The translations under genes were made by a program, and so were the position numbers. DNA of 52,694 nt, from NCBI GenBank assembly GCA_002070275.1, contig MWCY01000020.1:1-52694 (forward strand), read 5' to 3'. This document shows, piece after piece, positions 4,639 through 52,694 of this stretch; the first letter of the stretch is position 1, and every line of letters begins with the position of its first letter. Source of the DNA: Candidatus Hydrogenedentes bacterium ADurb.Bin170 (GTDB lineage Bacteria; Hydrogenedentota; Hydrogenedentia; Hydrogenedentales; CAITNO01). Under the pieces are notes generated by a model that was not told where the DNA came from, did not search any database, and was given only the letters and a program-made list of their open reading frames with translations.

Positions 4639-4669
4639 GAGCCGCCGGATTTTAAAGGTCCGGCGGCTC
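4639..4669 (+). terminator. Hairpin between convergent genes
   Basis: A perfect 11-bp stem (GAGCCGCCGGA / TCCGGCGGCTC) with a 9-base loop lies 26 bases after the stop of the surface-protein gene and before the end of the convergent pseudopilin gene. There is an A-rich stretch before it but only a weak T-tract after it, so it may serve both directions. Confidence 0.65.
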
Positions 4670-27870: not shown

Positions 27871-28802
27871 CTCCTTCACTTTTTCAGAAAAATCGCACTC
27901 CCCGCCGCTTTCTCCGCATTAATGTGGTGGCAAGCATTCTGACTACCATGAATCTGTACATGGGCACGACCAGCATACTGGCAAGCATCGGTCAGGAATT
28001 TCAGTGGGCGGCAACATGTATCCTGCTGGCAATTCTCTTCGATACCTTTGACGGATTTGTTGCACGGCTCACGCACAGTGTGTCCGACTTCGGCAAGGAA
28101 CTGGACAGTCTCTGCGATATGGTTTCCTTTGGTGTCGCCCCTGCTGTGCTCGTGTTCATGGCGTATCTGCCGCCCGATGCACATCTCCCCCTGTCGCCCC
28201 GAACGGAATCTATTGTCGGTATGACAGGATCGTACATGGCTATCATTTTTGTTATCTGTGCGGCATTGAGGCTGGCACGCTTCAATACCTGGCATGCCGG
28301 GCGTTCGGATTTCTTTATCGGGCTGCCGTCTCCGGCAGCTGGAGGTACCCTTGCGGCTTTTGTACTCTTCCTTTTATATTTTGAGAAAAGCCTCAATGCT
28401 CATGCGCTGGGATCACTTGCCTATGTCGCTCTGGGACCGACTTCCGTTTTTCTCGCTTTCCTGATGGTCAGCTCCGTGCAGTATCCCAAAAACAGGCTGA
28501 AGACATTTCTTTTCAAACCGCGTCATGCATTTCAGGCGCTCGCTATAACAGCGTTTTTTATTGGGATCATTCATTACGCCATGGTCAAAAGCGTGTCTCT
28601 TGTGCTGTTTCCGCTGGCATGCCTCTATGTCCTGTACGGGCTGGGGGATACCTTGTATGGCAAAGTGACGGGCCGGGAGCCGTCGAATATCGCCAGAGAA
28701 GACATGGAAGCACCTGAAAATGACGACGTCACGGAGGTCGGCCTTCAGGCAGAAGGGGAGGAAAACGAAATCTCCAGTGGCGACTCCCTCGCCTCCTTTT
28801 AG
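27867..28802 (+). CDS. pssA: CDP-diacylglycerol--serine O-phosphatidyltransferase
   Basis: 311 residues, integral membrane protein with about seven hydrophobic segments. The CDP-alcohol phosphatidyltransferase signature is complete: DTFDGFVARLTHSVSDFGKE, then LDSLCD, with all conserved Asp residues. It makes phosphatidylserine for the adjacent Psd. The last 45 residues are acidic and polar (APENDDVTEVG and onward), longer than the usual family end. It may share a transcript with psd. Confidence 0.95.
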   Translation: MTPSLFQKNRTPRRFLRINVVASILTTMNLYMGTTSILASIGQEFQWAATCILLAILFDTFDGFVARLTHSVSDFGKELDSLCDMVSFGVAPAVLVFMAYLPPDAHLPLSPRTESIVGMTGSYMAIIFVICAALRLARFNTWHAGRSDFFIGLPSPAAGGTLAAFVLFLLYFEKSLNAHALGSLAYVALGPTSVFLAFLMVSSVQYPKNRLKTFLFKPRHAFQALAITAFFIGIIHYAMVKSVSLVLFPLACLYVLYGLGDTLYGKVTGREPSNIAREDMEAPENDDVTEVGLQAEGEENEISSGDSLASF

Positions 28803-28880
28803 TTTTTTCTCCGATGCGCCACGTCTCTAAAATTAACTCTTTTCTTGTTTACTATGCTTAACGAATGATTAGACCTGTCC

Positions 28881-28909
28881 TTGCTTATACGGAGAATAAA
28901 CAGCATAAT
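28881..28909 (+). promoter_or_regulatory. Candidate promoter of nifJ
   Basis: TTGCTT, 17 bases, CATAAT. The transcript would begin near 28917, giving a leader of about 170 bases that carries the hairpins described next. Confidence 0.4.
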
Positions 28910-28935
28910 ATGCGTATTCCCGCAACCTGACAGGT

Positions 28936-28983
28936 GCCCCTGATCTGCTTTGCAAAAAAGCAGATCGATATGGGGGCTTTTCT
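28936..28983 (+). terminator. Terminator-like hairpin in the nifJ leader, with an alternative pairing
   Basis: Inner perfect 10-bp stem GATCTGCTTT / AAAGCAGATC around a GCAAA loop, extended by GCCCC / GGGGC across a small bulge and followed by TTTTCT. The first bases, CCCCTGATC (28937-28945), can instead pair with GATCAGGGG (28987-28995), which would break the hairpin. A palindrome ACCTG-A-CAGGT lies just before (28926-28936 region). It may terminate psd-pssA, or act as an attenuator for nifJ. Confidence 0.55.
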
Positions 28984-29085
28984 GCTGATCAGGGGAAAAT
29001 AATTTCTCTTTTGCAGAAAAAAGCGGGCAAACCTCTTGATACCTGATCAATGCAGTGCTACGACCTACAGATTGGAGTTAAAAAC

Positions 29086-32000
29086 ATGACCAGACCGATG
29101 CGTACCATGGACGGTAATGAAGCGGTTGCAAATGTAGCTTACCAGGTAAGCGAAGTGGCAGCCATTTACCCGATTACCCCTTCTTCGAACATGGGAGAAT
29201 GGGCGGATCAGTGGATGTCTGAAGGCAGGCCCAATATTTGGGGAACGGTGCCTACTGTAGTTGAAATGCAGAGCGAGGGCGGCGCTGCCGCAGCCGTTCA
29301 TGGCGCACTGCAGACAGGATCCCTGACAACTACTTTCACGGCATCGCAGGGTCTGCTGCTCATGATTCCGAGCATGTTTAAAATCGCAGGCGAGCTGACC
29401 CCTGCCGTATTTCATATAAGTGCCCGTACCCTGGCGACCCATGCGCTGTCCATTTTCGGCGATCACAGTGACGTCATGTCCGCCCGCAGCACCGGATTCG
29501 GTATGCTTGCCTCCGGTTCCGTCCAGGAAGCCCAGGACATGGCGCTGATTGCCCATGCAGCCACCCTGGCAGCCCGGATACCCTTCATGCACTACTTCGA
29601 CGGTTTCCGTACGTCCCACGAAGAAAACAAAATTGAAGTGCTGCAGCCCGCCGACATGCGTGCCATGATTGATGACCAACTGGTCTTTGCCCACCGCATG
29701 CGCGCAATGTCGCCGGATCGTCCCGTGCTCCGCGGTACTGCCCAGAACCCCGACGTGTTCTTTACCGCCCGCGAGGCCTGCAATCCTTTTTATGAAGCCT
29801 GCCCCGCCATTGTGCAGCAGACCATGGATAAATTTGCTGCCGTAGTCGGCCGTCAGTATCACCTTTTTGATTATATCGGCGCTCCAGATGCGGAGCGGGT
29901 GATTGTGCTTATGGGTTCCGGAGCGGAAGCGGCAGCGGAAACCATTGATTATCTCGTGCAGAAAGGCGAGAAAATCGGTGCCGTTATTGTGCGTCTCTAT
30001 CGTCCGTTCTCCGCAGCCGCCCTTCTTGCTGCCTTCCCGAAAACAACGAAAGTGATCGGCGTTCTTGACAGGACCAAAGAGCCCGGAGCCGCAGGCGAAC
30101 CTCTGTTCATGGATGTTGCCACTGCTGTTACGGAAGCAACGATCAACGGCAACTCTCCCTTCGCAGTGCTGCCCCGCATTATCGGCGGTCGTTATGGTCT
30201 TTCCTCCCGCGAATTTACTCCTGCCATGATCAAGAGTATTTTTGACGAGATGCGCAAAGAGGAGCCGAAACGGCGCTTTACTGTCGGTATTAACGACGAT
30301 GTTTCCCATACCAGTATTTCCTATGATCCCTCCTTCTCCACGGAGTCGCCGGAAACCACCCGTGCGCTCTTCTACGGTCTGGGTGCGGACGGCACTGTGG
30401 GCGCCAATAAAAACTCCATCAAAATTCTTGGTGAAGACGCAGGTTTCTATGCGCAGGGCTATTTTGTGTATGACTCGCGCAAGTCCGGGTCCATGACCAC
30501 ATCTCACCTGCGTTTCGGGCCCAAGCCCATCCGGAGCACCTATCTGATTACCCGTGCGAACTTTGTCGCCTGCCATCAGTTTTCTTTCATGGAGAAATTT
30601 GATGTGCTGCGCTGCGCCGATGAAGGCGCTGTATTCCTGCTGAACAGCATCTACGGACCGGATGAGGTCTGGGATCATCTGCCGAAGACAGCCCAGCGGC
30701 AGATCATTGAGAAGAAACTTAAATTCTTCATTATTAACGGCTTCGAAGTGGCAAAAGCGGCCGGTATGGGCGGACGTATCAATACCGTCATGCAGACCTG
30801 CTTCTTCTATATCAGTGGTGTGATGCCGCAGGCGGCTGCCATTGAAGCGATTAAAACCTCCATTAAAAACACCTACGGCAAGCGGGGCGACACCATTGTT
30901 CAGAAGAACTGGGCCGCTGTGGATATGGCAGTGGAACATCTGCATGAAGTGAAAGTGCCCGGCACCGTAACCAGCACCTTCGATATCCGCCCCGCAGTGC
31001 CCGCCCATGCTCCGGAATTTTTGCATGAATTCACCGCTGCCATTCTGGCGGAAAGCGGCGAGACCCTTCCGGTAAGCAAAATGCCCGTAGATGGTACCTT
31101 CCCCACAGGGACGACCCAGTGGGAAAAGCGGAACATTGCCCTTGAAATTCCTGAGTGGGACGAAGAGATCTGTATCCAGTGCGGTAAGTGCGCTCTCGTG
31201 TGTCCCCACGGCGTAATTCGCGCCAAAATTGTGGAAGAAGAAACCCTGGCGGATGCGCCTGAAGGCTTTAAGTCGGCGCGCGCCAAATGGAAAGAATTCG
31301 CCGATAACCGCTATATCATGCAGATTGCCCCGGAAGACTGCACAGGCTGTGCGCTCTGTGTCCAGGCGTGTCCGGTGAAAAATAAACAGCAGCCCAAGCT
31401 GCGGGCGATCAATATGGTGGAACAGGCGCCCATCCGTGACCGGGAGAGAGAACGCTGGAATTACTTCCTGTCACTGCCCGAAGTGGATCGTGGTGCCGTC
31501 AAGATGAATCTCGTAAAAGATGTTCAGCTGCTGCGGCCGCTTTTTGAATTCAGCGGTGCCTGTGCAGGCTGCGGCGAAACACCCTATGTGAAGCTGATTT
31601 CCCAGCTCTTCGGCGATCGCCTGTATGTCGCCAATGCCACGGGCTGCTCTTCCATTTACGGCGGTAATCTGCCGACCACGCCCTGGGCTTTTAATGCGGA
31701 CGGACGCGGCCCGGCGTGGAACAACTCCCTCTTTGAAGATGCAGCGGAGTTCGGGCTCGGGATGCGTGTGACCATTGACAAACAGAAAGAATTTGCTGAA
31801 GAACTGGTCAAACGGCTGGAAAGCCAGATCGGCGGAACCCTGGCTGCTGAACTTCTCAGCGCTGAACAGAAAACCGAAGCAGGCATTCAGGCGCAGCGCG
31901 AACGGGTTGCAGCACTGAAGGAAAAACTGGCGGCCATCGGCACTGGTGAAGCCAAAGTGCTTGCCCATGTGGCGGATTTCCTGGTGCGGAAGACGGTGTG

Positions 32001-32664
32001 GTCCATGGGCGGTGACGGCTGGGCGTATGACATCGGCTATGGCGGTCTGGATCATGTTATTGCTTCCGGCAAAGACATCAACCTGCTTGTGATGGATACG
32101 GAAGTGTATTCGAATACGGGCGGGCAATGCTCCAAAGCCACGCCGCGCGGTGCCGTCGCCAAGTTTGCGGCAGGCGGAAAGCCCGGCTCCAAAAAAGATC
32201 TGGGACTTATTGCTATGACTTACGGCAACGTTTATGTTGCGCAGATTGCCATGGGTGCCAATGATTCCCATACAATCCGTGCCATTCTCGAAGCTGAAGC
32301 CTATGAAGGACCTTCCATAGTCATCGCCTACAGTCACTGTATTGCTCACGGCTACAATCTGGTGATGGGTCTCGAACAACAGAAAAATGCTGTCCAGTCC
32401 GGTCACTGGCCCTTGTACCGCTTCAATCCTGCACTGAAAGCGGAAGGCAAGAATCCCTTCCAGCTCGACTGCAAAGAGCCGGCGCTGGATCTTGACAAAT
32501 ACATTTATAATGAAACACGCTATAAGATGCTGACGCTCAGCCAGCCCGAACTTGCGGCTTCCCTTCTGGAAGGGGCAAAAGAGGACGTGGCTGCCAGATG
32601 GCGCCTCTACAGCTATCTTGCGAAGATGGAGTTTGGTTCCGAAAACGAGACCGCGGTTGAATAA
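29086..32664 (+). CDS. nifJ: Pyruvate:ferredoxin (flavodoxin) oxidoreductase, single-chain
   Basis: 1192 residues from the ATG at 29086 (GGAG eight bases upstream; the ATG at 29050 is less likely). Converts pyruvate and CoA to acetyl-CoA, CO2 and reduced ferredoxin. All domains of the homodimeric enzyme are present in order: N-terminal pyrimidine-binding domain (AIYPITPSSNMGEWAD; QGLLLMIPSMFKIAGEL), the gamma domain (KSGSMTTSHLRFG), a two-cluster ferredoxin domain (CIQCGKCALVCP from C696; CTGCALCVQACP from C752), and the TPP domain (CAGCGETPYVK from C826; NATGCSSIYGG; GDGWAYDIGYGG) with the further cluster Cys in SHCIAHGYN. Length is typical. It is the central step of anaerobic carbon flow; a DHODH-like gene follows. 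Confidence 0.98.
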   Translation: MTRPMRTMDGNEAVANVAYQVSEVAAIYPITPSSNMGEWADQWMSEGRPNIWGTVPTVVEMQSEGGAAAAVHGALQTGSLTTTFTASQGLLLMIPSMFKIAGELTPAVFHISARTLATHALSIFGDHSDVMSARSTGFGMLASGSVQEAQDMALIAHAATLAARIPFMHYFDGFRTSHEENKIEVLQPADMRAMIDDQLVFAHRMRAMSPDRPVLRGTAQNPDVFFTAREACNPFYEACPAIVQQTMDKFAAVVGRQYHLFDYIGAPDAERVIVLMGSGAEAAAETIDYLVQKGEKIGAVIVRLYRPFSAAALLAAFPKTTKVIGVLDRTKEPGAAGEPLFMDVATAVTEATINGNSPFAVLPRIIGGRYGLSSREFTPAMIKSIFDEMRKEEPKRRFTVGINDDVSHTSISYDPSFSTESPETTRALFYGLGADGTVGANKNSIKILGEDAGFYAQGYFVYDSRKSGSMTTSHLRFGPKPIRSTYLITRANFVACHQFSFMEKFDVLRCADEGAVFLLNSIYGPDEVWDHLPKTAQRQIIEKKLKFFIINGFEVAKAAGMGGRINTVMQTCFFYISGVMPQAAAIEAIKTSIKNTYGKRGDTIVQKNWAAVDMAVEHLHEVKVPGTVTSTFDIRPAVPAHAPEFLHEFTAAILAESGETLPVSKMPVDGTFPTGTTQWEKRNIALEIPEWDEEICIQCGKCALVCPHGVIRAKIVEEETLADAPEGFKSARAKWKEFADNRYIMQIAPEDCTGCALCVQACPVKNKQQPKLRAINMVEQAPIRDRERERWNYFLSLPEVDRGAVKMNLVKDVQLLRPLFEFSGACAGCGETPYVKLISQLFGDRLYVANATGCSSIYGGNLPTTPWAFNADGRGPAWNNSLFEDAAEFGLGMRVTIDKQKEFAEELVKRLESQIGGTLAAELLSAEQKTEAGIQAQRERVAALKEKLAAIGTGEAKVLAHVADFLVRKTVWSMGGDGWAYDIGYGGLDHVIASGKDINLLVMDTEVYSNTGGQCSKATPRGAVAKFAAGGKPGSKKDLGLIAMTYGNVYVAQIAMGANDSHTIRAILEAEAYEGPSIVIAYSHCIAHGYNLVMGLEQQKNAVQSGHWPLYRFNPALKAEGKNPFQLDCKEPALDLDKYIYNETRYKMLTLSQPELAASLLEGAKEDVAARWRLYSYLAKMEFGSENETAVE

Positions 32665-35285: not shown

Positions 35286-36011
35286 TTAGTCATCGGATCC
35301 CCAGCTATTCCAGTCGGAACTGCCGAAGGTAGAGGAGGTTGAGGCAGGAGGCGTGGAAGAGCCGAAACTGCTTGAATAAGTGGAAGGGGAAGAATACAGG
35401 GACGAGCCGGAGGCGGAGTTCTTTTTGGAAGTGCTAGTACTTCCAGAAGAGCCGAAGCCGCTTGAATAAGTGGAAGGGGAAGAATACAGGGATGAGCCGG
35501 AGGCGGAGTTCTTTTTGGAAGTGCTTGTGGTTTCTGAAGAGCCGAAACTGCTTGAATAAGTGGAAGGGGAAGAATACAGGGACGAGCCGGACGAGTTTGA
35601 GCTGCTGGAGTTGCTGGAGTTGTCTGAGCTGGTGCTGCTGTTGGAATGCCAAAGCGTGGAGGACGAGGCAGTGGAAGAAGATCTCTTTTTATCGTGCGCA
35701 TCAATGGTGGGGTGGCGTTCACCATAGACCCACGTGCCGGTTTTTGTATTGTAGGTATCCTGTGAGCCATCAGAATTTCTGAATCCAAAGGTATGCTCGC
35801 CGGTTTTTGTATTGTAGGTATCCTGTGAGCCGTCAGGATTTCTGAATCCAAAGGTATGCTCGCCCCTTGATAAGTTATAGGTGTCGTAGGAGCCATCAGT
35901 ATTCCTGTACTGATGGATGATTTCTATGCCCGGCTTGTAGTCCTCTGCCCACACGCCTGCCGGGCAGACAAACAGGACGAAGAGAAAAATCGAAGTGACT
36001 GCAGTTCTCAT
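35286..36011 (-). CDS. Exported serine-rich tandem-repeat protein
   Basis: 241 residues from the ATG at 36011 (AAAGGGG upstream). Signal peptide about 1-22 (ending VWA). Next come near-identical 21-residue repeats built on TFGFRN-x-DGSQDTYNTKTG (about residues 50-95, preceded by a diverged copy). The rest is Ser-rich with a 30-residue repeat containing SGSSLYSSPSTYSS and FGSS, present three times. No known catalytic domain. I do not recognise a family; the composition suggests a flexible, secreted or surface-exposed protein. Confidence 0.8.
   Translation of the reverse strand: MRTAVTSIFLFVLFVCPAGVWAEDYKPGIEIIHQYRNTDGSYDTYNLSRGEHTFGFRNPDGSQDTYNTKTGEHTFGFRNSDGSQDTYNTKTGTWVYGERHPTIDAHDKKRSSSTASSSTLWHSNSSTSSDNSSNSSSSNSSGSSLYSSPSTYSSSFGSSETTSTSKKNSASGSSLYSSPSTYSSGFGSSGSTSTSKKNSASGSSLYSSPSTYSSSFGSSTPPASTSSTFGSSDWNSWGSDD
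35361..35600. repeat. 90-bp tandem repeat in the Ser-rich gene
   Basis: Copies begin at 35361, 35451 and 35541 (the last is partial) and are nearly identical at base level, which points to recent duplication. The period is 30 codons, so the frame is kept. Confidence 0.9.
35754..35879. repeat. 63-bp tandem repeat in the Ser-rich gene
   Basis: Two almost identical 63-base units encode the 21-residue TFGFRN/DGSQDTYN repeat. Confidence 0.88.
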
Positions 36012-36346
36012 GAAATACCCCTTTCGGTTAAAGTTCCGCTTAGCCCAGTGCGACGGTGTTGTTTCACTGTTTGCCCTATTATAACACACTGATATATGGA
36101 ATGCTACAGAAATGACGCCAGGACAAGTGTACTGTTTTGCCAAAGGAGCTGCCCAGGCAGAACGGCGAGGAAGGTATGTACCAACTGGGCTGAAGTGCAT
36201 GCTTCATGCGACATGCCGCTTCTTTTCACTTTGAAAAAGGGTGTTTCAAAAGCAAATCAGTTCGGCTCGAAAAGATAATTTCGAAGTGGCATGTCCCTTC
36301 AGGTAGAATATACTTGTTCTTTCGAAAGCTCAGGGATCTTGTGAAA
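36012..36346. other. Intergenic region between divergent genes
   Basis: 335 bases. Besides the reverse extended -10 promoter it holds small hairpins such as GCATG-CTT-CATGC (near 36198-36210). I compared it by eye with common riboswitch consensus cores and found no match. No convincing gene. Confidence 0.5.
36078..36086 (-). promoter_or_regulatory. Extended -10 promoter of the Ser-rich gene
   Basis: On the reverse strand TGT followed by perfect TATAAT, about 67 bases before the start codon. Confidence 0.5.
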
Positions 36347-52134: not shown

Positions 52135-52175
52135 AAAAAAATACCGGTACTGCCTGTTGCGGCAGTACCGGTATT
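52135..52175 (-). terminator. Strong terminator of the reverse-strand surface-protein gene
   Basis: A perfect 15-bp stem with a 6-base loop; on the reverse strand it is followed by a run of at least six T. It lies 24 bases beyond the stop codon at 52200. The other direction has no T-tract. Confidence 0.93.
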
Positions 52176-52199: not shown

Positions 52200-52694
52200 T
52201 CAGATTTTCTTGCGCAGGGCGCTGCCTGCAAGAAGTGTGCTCAGGCACAGACCCAGAAGCAGCCAGTCACCCAGCAAGGCTTTTGTCGATGTCCGCAGAT
52301 CTTTGGATTTGCAGCCGCAGCCTGATCCGGTGTTGCTGTCTTCACCTTCGATCACAGATTCGCCTTCGGTCACGGGCTCCCCTTCGATTACGGGTTCACC
52401 TTCGATTACGGGTTCACCTTCGACCGGCGTCTCACCTTCAACCGGCGTCTCACCTTCGACAGGAGTTTCGCCTTCGACCGGTGTCTCGCCTTCAACCGGT
52501 GTCTCTCCTTCAACCGGTGTCTCACCTTCGACGGGCGTCTCGCCTTCTATGGTGGAGTCATCGGCGATAGGAGCAACCTTGCGAAGCCAGGGATAGCCGT
52601 TATTACGGTTCGCCCGCGCGATAATCCAGATTGTGTCAAAGTCCCATCCTTCATAGCAGGACGGATCATAAGGGTAGGTCATTTCTGCAGTGGT
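52200..52694 (-). CDS. C-terminal end of a surface protein with VEGE repeats and a Cys-Gly-Cys membrane anchor (5' part outside the window)
   Basis: The frame is open through the window edge, so this is the last 164 residues of a longer protein. The visible start (TTAEMTYPYDPSCYEGWDF and GYPWLR) looks like the end of a GLUG-motif repeat, a known beta-structured element of surface proteins. Then come seven PVEGET hexapeptides and four diverged units (PVIEGE, PVTEGE, SVIEGE). The tail has GCGCKSK, a hydrophobic span (about 20 residues) and a final RKK. This repeat-Cys-helix-basic arrangement is typical of proteins in Hydrogenedentota and resembles a C-terminal sorting or anchoring signal; the enzyme that would process it is not known here. 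Confidence 0.82.
   Translation of the reverse strand, partial: TTAEMTYPYDPSCYEGWDFDTIWIIARANRNNGYPWLRKVAPIADDSTIEGETPVEGETPVEGETPVEGETPVEGETPVEGETPVEGETPVEGEPVIEGEPVIEGEPVTEGESVIEGEDSNTGSGCGCKSKDLRTSTKALLGDWLLLGLCLSTLLAGSALRKKI
52353..52549. repeat. 18-bp tandem repeat coding for PVEGET
   Basis: Seven 18-base units (about 52415-52540) with mostly third-base differences, flanked by four shorter or diverged units. Base changes between copies keep the peptide, suggesting selection on the protein. Confidence 0.88.

Follow-up and report, generated by a model that had tools for sequence, protein, structure and literature searches.

The closest described systems to a bacterial leader with competing pairings are the attenuators and riboswitches of the Rfam cis-regulatory families. 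In an attenuator, formation of the terminator is settled before or during transcription of its 3' arm, and the known riboswitch classes retain the nucleotides of their binding sites widely. At promoters, class I activators occupy positions such as −61.5 and −82.5, as described for CRP of Escherichia coli. The gene of interest here, nifJ, encodes pyruvate:ferredoxin oxidoreductase (PFOR), the enzyme that connects pyruvate with acetyl-CoA in anaerobes. A long leader of a comparable kind precedes hsp18 of Clostridium acetobutylicum; as described in the available portion of that report, it is 149 nt in length and has extensive predicted structure, with a function proposed, not shown, by its authors (PMC9045289). 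The Rex operator of Staphylococcus aureus is given, in the accessible part of its source, as TTGTGAAW4TTCACAA (PMC2883068). We found no account of PFOR control in Hydrogenedentota, and the portions available to us of the literature on PFOR riboswitches or leaders, on riboswitches of Hydrogenedentes and on nifJ structured RNA held nothing on the leader described below.

That leader is a predicted 170-nt sequence before nifJ in a contig of 52,694 nucleotides from Candidatus Hydrogenedentes bacterium ADurb.Bin170, the whole of which is referred to as the window. Like attenuators and riboswitches, it has overlapping alternative pairings; unlike them, it has no Rfam match, its elements stand in the wrong order, and a conserved aptamer sequence was not found. 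It resembles the hsp18 leader in being long and in having extensive predicted structure, and differs from it in belonging to another gene and another phylum and in having some conservation of pairs within its genus.

The nifJ Gene, Its Promoter and Its Start Codon

The nifJ gene occupies positions 29086–32664 of the plus strand (TIGR02176, 1818 bits against a cut-off of 911), between a phosphatidylserine synthase gene on the 5' side, which ends at 28802, and a dihydroorotate dehydrogenase-like gene on the 3' side. A putative Shine-Dalgarno sequence, GGAGT, is at 29074–29078 on the same strand, and a GGAG- or AGGA-type motif was present 6–16 nt 5' of the start in 25 of 25 PFOR leaders. An in-frame ATG at 29050, 36 bases 5' of the nifJ start, occurs in both genomes of the genus and might add a 12-residue extension to the nifJ product; in the sister genome, four codons of this stretch are changed, two of them silently, and one codon is inserted in frame. 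We rejected ATG 29050 as the start of nifJ, as no Shine-Dalgarno sequence was seen before it by eye and the starts of the relatives agree with ATG 29086.

A sigma-70-like promoter, TTGCTT-17-CATAAT, can be read on the plus strand at 28881–28909, with the −35 hexamer at 28881–28886 and the −10 hexamer at 28904–28909. It was missing from the list produced by the consensus promoter scan. Both hexamers are identical in the sister genome, the spacer differing in part. Across the order, 25 of 27 examined PFOR genes had an NATAAT-type −10 upstream, and for L026, one of the two without it, the available upstream sequence was just 70 nt long. The nifJ transcript would start near 28916, 170 nt 5' of ATG 29086.

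Predicted Structure of the nifJ Leader

The leader (28916–29085, plus strand) folded at −55.0 kcal/mol, with z-scores against shuffled sequences of −4.28 and −4.33 in two runs, and of −3.46 for the interval 28917–29095. Folding z over the contig had a mean of −0.38 (sd 1.19), and the z of the leader was reached by only 3 of 584 plus-strand 170-nt windows, those at 28891, 41041 and 52021, the first of which overlaps the leader and the second a tRNA. Two exact Watson-Crick helices of at least 9 bp occur in the leader, which was equalled by 0 of 200 shuffles. We conclude that in this species the modelled structure exceeds chance.

In the minimum fold of the leader alone, a closing helix termed P1 (CCCGC at 28919–28923 with GCGGG at 29023–29027, p 0.64) encloses the P2 hairpin (ACCT-GAC-AGGT, 28925–28935), hairpin A (GCCCCTGATCTGCTTT..AAAGCAGATCGATATGGGGGC, 28936–28977) and hairpin B (TTTTCTGC..GCAGAAAA, 28978–29020), all on the plus strand. 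Hairpins A and B were robust in the predicted fold; P1 and P2 were not. Hairpin A is terminator-like, with an energy of −24.1 kcal/mol on its own, and is followed directly by TTTTCTGC, in which the supposed T-tract amounts to four T (28978–28981) that are absorbed into hairpin B, whose outer stem has p 0.99. The terminator scan, which as described excludes bulged stems, did not list hairpin A. An alternative helix, P3, would pair CCCCTGATC (28937–28945) with GATCAGGGG (28987–28995), which are exact 9-bp complements on the plus strand. Forcing P3 in this species gave a fold 13.2 kcal/mol above the minimum, and forcing it while nested with hairpin A, P1 and P2 cost 14.2 kcal/mol; its first six pairs are compatible with the part of hairpin A that is kept in the sister. 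A possible pseudoknot between the loop of hairpin A and 29008–29014 was also spotted by eye.

Another rival pairing, of 28931–28935 with 29041–29045, had p 0.29 in the leader alone, against p 0.64 for P1. When 60 nt of the gene were added, the minimum fold dropped P1 and P2 in favor of this pairing (−72.0 kcal/mol, versus −70.4 kcal/mol when P1 and P2 were forced). The modelled exposure of the Shine-Dalgarno sequence was equal in both states, at 0.25 and 0.26.

All the sequence elements that the original prediction had named at this locus were recovered. The plausible promoter that it placed about 170 bases upstream corresponds to TTGCTT-17-CATAAT, with a predicted start near 28916 and a leader of 170 nt. 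The terminator-like hairpin is present at 28936–28977, though with a tail of just four T, as are the alternative 9-bp pairing, the palindrome ACCTG-A-CAGGT, which is P2, and the recurrence of CCTGATC, whose second copy is at 29042–29048. Folding the leader, as had been suggested, gave a strong fold (z −4.3) with several hairpins.

Conservation of the Leader in a Sister Species

The comparison within the genus was of two leaders, from this species (G000) and one sister (G001), that share 63 percent identity when aligned. Full-length leader DNA was found in these two genomes only, in one copy each, among 68 genomes of the order. A short second match, to the stretch 28982–29016, occurs near a contig end (G000:C23:157-190, 86 percent over 35 nt, E 0.0026). 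The possibility that the leader is a repeat or mobile element was rejected, given its full-length presence in only the two genus genomes of the 68 and the absence of any matching phage record at E 1e-5.

When the 24 pairs of P1, P2, P3 and the core of hairpin A were compared with G001, 18 were identical, four had two-sided compensatory changes (one in P2, one in P3 and two in hairpin A), none had one-sided changes and two, both at helix ends, were broken. Four of the five P1 pairs are identical and the innermost is broken, so that P1 has no covariation. In P2, one A-U pair is replaced by G-C and the remaining three pairs are identical. Only the upper part of hairpin A (28943–28965) is kept, with its two two-sided changes and one broken end pair, and by eye its lower stem, GCCCC/GGGGGC, and the TTTT are missing from the sister. 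In P3, one C-G pair is replaced by U-A (CCCCTGA/TCAGGGG here, TCCCTGA/TCAGGGA in G001), and the sister version belongs to the minimum fold of that leader with p 1.00. Hairpin B was absent from the helices listed for G001.

The count of four two-sided changes depends on manual alignment of P3 and of one gap in hairpin A. With the MAFFT alignment, in which P3 is not included and one hairpin A pair is lost to the gap, the pair counts were reached by 131 of 500 shuffles. The G001 leader itself was not unusually stable (z −0.63) and has no helix of at least 8 bp. The comparison of the two sequences suggests that the pairings are partly kept in the sister, on evidence that is thin. The covariation that the original prediction proposed to look for in nifJ leaders of relatives was seen in part in the one sister, and no homologous leader was found beyond the genus. 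Within the genus, the fold of the leader is probably under selection while its sequence changes fast.

PFOR Leaders in Other Genera

Predicted PFOR leaders were 119–207 nt long in 16 other genomes of the family and 88–233 nt over 25 leaders of the order. Three loci (L027, L029 and L030) had been dropped before folding, as the match did not begin at residue 1 or the protein was a distant relative, and two (L016 and L026) for the missing −10. The average folding z of the 25 leaders was about −0.9, with six at −2 or below. Leaders from outside the family were folded singly, and the comparison with coding control windows covered the genera of the family. Genus g2, which has one genome, was omitted from that comparison and from some shuffle tests; L008, a near copy of L007, was omitted from these as well as from the cross-genus pairs and the dyad scan described below. 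Aligned within genera and scored against column shuffles, the leaders had an alifold z lower than that of each of the 10 coding controls from their own genomes in five genera of the six, with values of −1.90 (g1), −1.81 (g3), −3.37 (g7), −4.70 (g6) and −1.38 (g5); the genus without excess leader structure was g4 (−0.18). The control windows had a mean z of −0.45 (sd 1.03, n = 60).

True covariation is scarce in the leaders of other genera; in the three genomes of g7, for example, a two-sided change was found in 1 of 51 pairs and 10 pairs were broken or gapped in one sequence. No sequence similarity was detectable between the leaders of different genera, and a covariance model of the two leaders of this genus had no significant match in 27 other PFOR loci (best E 0.29), in which an aptamer core conserved across genera was likewise not found. 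A fold common to the genera was rejected after 78 pairs among 13 of the family's 17 leaders gave a mean z of 0.48. The best cross-genus pair, L001-L006, was equalled in 0 of 100 trials when both leaders were shuffled and in 1 of 100 when L001 was kept; it was not counted as significant because 78 tests were made. Runs of at least five T, counted as runs alone, occurred in 9 of the 25 PFOR leaders of the order, including L003, L005 and L006 of the family. Pairings of CCGG loops were spotted by eye in leaders of other genera.

No Rfam family was found in the nifJ leader at the gathering threshold, and the three matches obtained (E 2.5–4.9) were far under their gathering scores. A known riboswitch class was ruled out by this missing match.

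A Palindrome at a Fixed Distance from the −10

Upstream of the −35 hexamer, centered at about −61.5, is a palindrome, TTGTTTACTATGCTTAACGA (28845–28864), that is a putative regulator-binding site. It matches 12 of 14 positions of a consensus, TTGTTNAG-N4-CTNAACAA, drawn by eye from these same promoters, and is the sole site in the window with at least 11 matches. The best match to the consensus within 110 bp upstream was centered exactly 49 bp before the −10 in nine of nine genomes of g1, g3 and g4. Sites in g1 and g3, six genomes in all, matched at 12–14 of 14 positions, far above shuffled sequences (p ≤ 0.003). The three g4 genomes gave matches at 8–9 of 14 positions that were not above shuffles (p 0.09–0.75), so that the g4 site is backed by position alone. 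The three genomes of g7 had their best match exactly 70 bp before the −10 (10–12 of 14, p 0.027 or less), which is 21 bp, or two helical turns, further upstream than the 49-bp site. Genus g2, too, had its best match at 70 bp, where the score did not exceed chance, and no convincing site was found in the other 12 promoters (g5, g6 and other families). A dyad scan that made no use of the consensus ranked the 49-bp center top, 4.2 sd above the mean of 86 centers in 16 promoters of the family, and the 70-bp center third (1.9 sd).

A genome-wide regulon was rejected as there was no enrichment of the palindrome, with 111 sites at up to three mismatches versus 116 for a reversed-pattern control. Near matches among ribosomal protein genes (L141) and at L139 also led nowhere. 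Three of the seven Rex-like genes examined, those of G000, G001 and G003, also carry the nifJ palindrome (11–12 of 14), some 100 bp ahead of the stretch encoding the DNA-binding domain (at about 200–219 in L155, and in the upstream regions in L157 and L159). The Rex-like protein of G000 matches NF003995 (Rex) with 192.6 bits. Among six ordinary rex genes, a match of 11 was seen once, lying over the promoter. These 13 genes came from 19 Rex-domain places in the family and were split into Rex-like and ordinary by eye. A second, more or less perfect palindrome around ACCTACCGGTAGGT was seen by eye upstream of seven of seven Rex-like genes (L155, L157, L159, L161, L163, L164 and L166), and might be their own autoregulatory site. 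This genome encodes two Rex-type proteins and, above the cut-off, two Crp-type proteins.

The nifJ palindrome resembles Rex operators in its TTGTT/AACAA ends, in its location upstream of an anaerobic redox gene and in its second occurrence before a Rex-like gene. It differs from them in being 20 bp long, two bases longer, with the form TTGTTNAG-N4-CTNAACAA, and in its activator-like upstream position. The 18-bp Rex-type pattern, TTGTGAA-N4-TTCACAA, was not found, the better copies having an AG-N4-CT center. It might be a redox operator of an unfamiliar type.

Other Features of the Window

A strong terminator-like inverted repeat, AATACCGGTACTGCC..GGCAGTACCGGTATT, at 52140–52175 falls in the 170-nt interval with the strongest folding score of the contig (z −6.0); it has an A run before it and is possibly a terminator for minus-strand genes. 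Short tandem repeats at 52310–52500 seemingly encode Gly-Glu-Pro/Thr linkers on the minus strand, after which a Cys-rich, membrane and basic tail resembles a C-terminal sorting signal, both as judged by eye. An ORF at 35286–36200, also on the minus strand, encodes a Ser-rich protein whose internal repeats are of the SGSSLYSSPSTYSSSFGSS type.

Discussion

The promoter hexamers, the palindrome and its spacing, the strong predicted folding and the pairs kept in the sister were all computed directly. The account of them that we prefer, and to which we would give about an even chance of being right, is an activator-type promoter followed by a structured, fast-evolving 5' UTR that acts on mRNA stability or translation. 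The sigma-70-type promoter at 28881–28909 would drive nifJ, and the palindromic site at about −61.5, a typical class I activator position, may bind an activator. The 170-nt leader would form several hairpins, with P1 as the probable closing helix, and its general job might be to shield the mRNA at its 5' end and to govern the start of translation. Condition-dependent regulation would act mainly at the promoter, which we consider the more likely place of control.

The original prediction had instead proposed an attenuator, in which hairpin A terminates transcription and CCCCTGATC/GATCAGGGG antiterminates. A strong hairpin followed by TTTT is present, and the short tail alone is not decisive, since a strong, GC-rich, terminator-like hairpin at 4639–4669 on the minus strand (window 4591, z −4.2) by eye likewise seems to end in a short TTTT. 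As read from the sequence, however, the geometry of the leader is wrong for a transcription attenuator. The 3' strand of P3 lies beyond the would-be termination point (28978–28985), and P3 cannot decide terminator formation because this strand is transcribed after hairpin A and the TTTT. An upstream partner for the GCCCC arm was not found in 28916–28935, the stretch before hairpin A. The sister lacks the GC-rich stem base and the tail, as judged by eye, hairpin B absorbs the TTTT, P3 carries a cost of 13–14 kcal/mol, and hairpin A is not among the terminators that the scan, which does not take bulged stems, listed. Together these points make the attenuator highly improbable. The riboswitch that had been suggested alongside it was likewise not supported, there being no Rfam family and no detectable conservation of sequence beyond the genus. 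A conformational switch that works without a terminator, its two exclusive folds responding to a ligand, a protein or the ribosome and acting on translation or decay, is a better candidate, and we still think it unlikely. The folds proposed for it are P3 versus the long hairpin A, or P1 and P2 versus 28931–28935 with 29041–29045. The core of hairpin A and P3 both have two-sided changes, yet the minimum fold of each species uses one of them, and P1 is near its rival in the leader alone, with the rival slightly ahead once 60 nt of coding sequence are included. Against this, P3 is far above the minimum here and can form its first six pairs alongside the kept part of hairpin A, G001 lacks the near-balance (P1 p 0.96, P2 p 1.00), the modelled Shine-Dalgarno exposure does not change and a conserved binding-site sequence was not found.

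Another possibility is that the structure is incidental, the leader being a long spacer whose strong fold is functionless and whose pairings in the sister are inherited or due to chance. The undetectable similarity of sequence between genera is consistent with this, as are the 19 of 25 PFOR leaders, the sister's included, that fold at z above −2, and the ease with which shuffles matched the pair counts from the MAFFT alignment. The 24 pairs with four two-sided and zero one-sided changes, and the five of six genera whose leaders lie under all their coding controls, argue against it, and on balance we judge incidental structure to be somewhat unlikely. At the other extreme would be a regulatory leader RNA peculiar to PFOR in Hydrogenedentota, with an architecture that is selected while its sequence is turned over completely between genera, and with two conserved exclusive folds that operate jointly with a redox-regulated promoter; this we consider quite improbable. 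We return to the activator-type promoter with a structured 5' UTR, for which the best description of the RNA is a structured leader with modest conservation at the level of the genus.

These findings narrow the question of how nifJ may be controlled, in that its leader appears structured, yet not arranged as an attenuator. The upstream palindrome, at its fixed distance, offers a direct target for finding the regulator.
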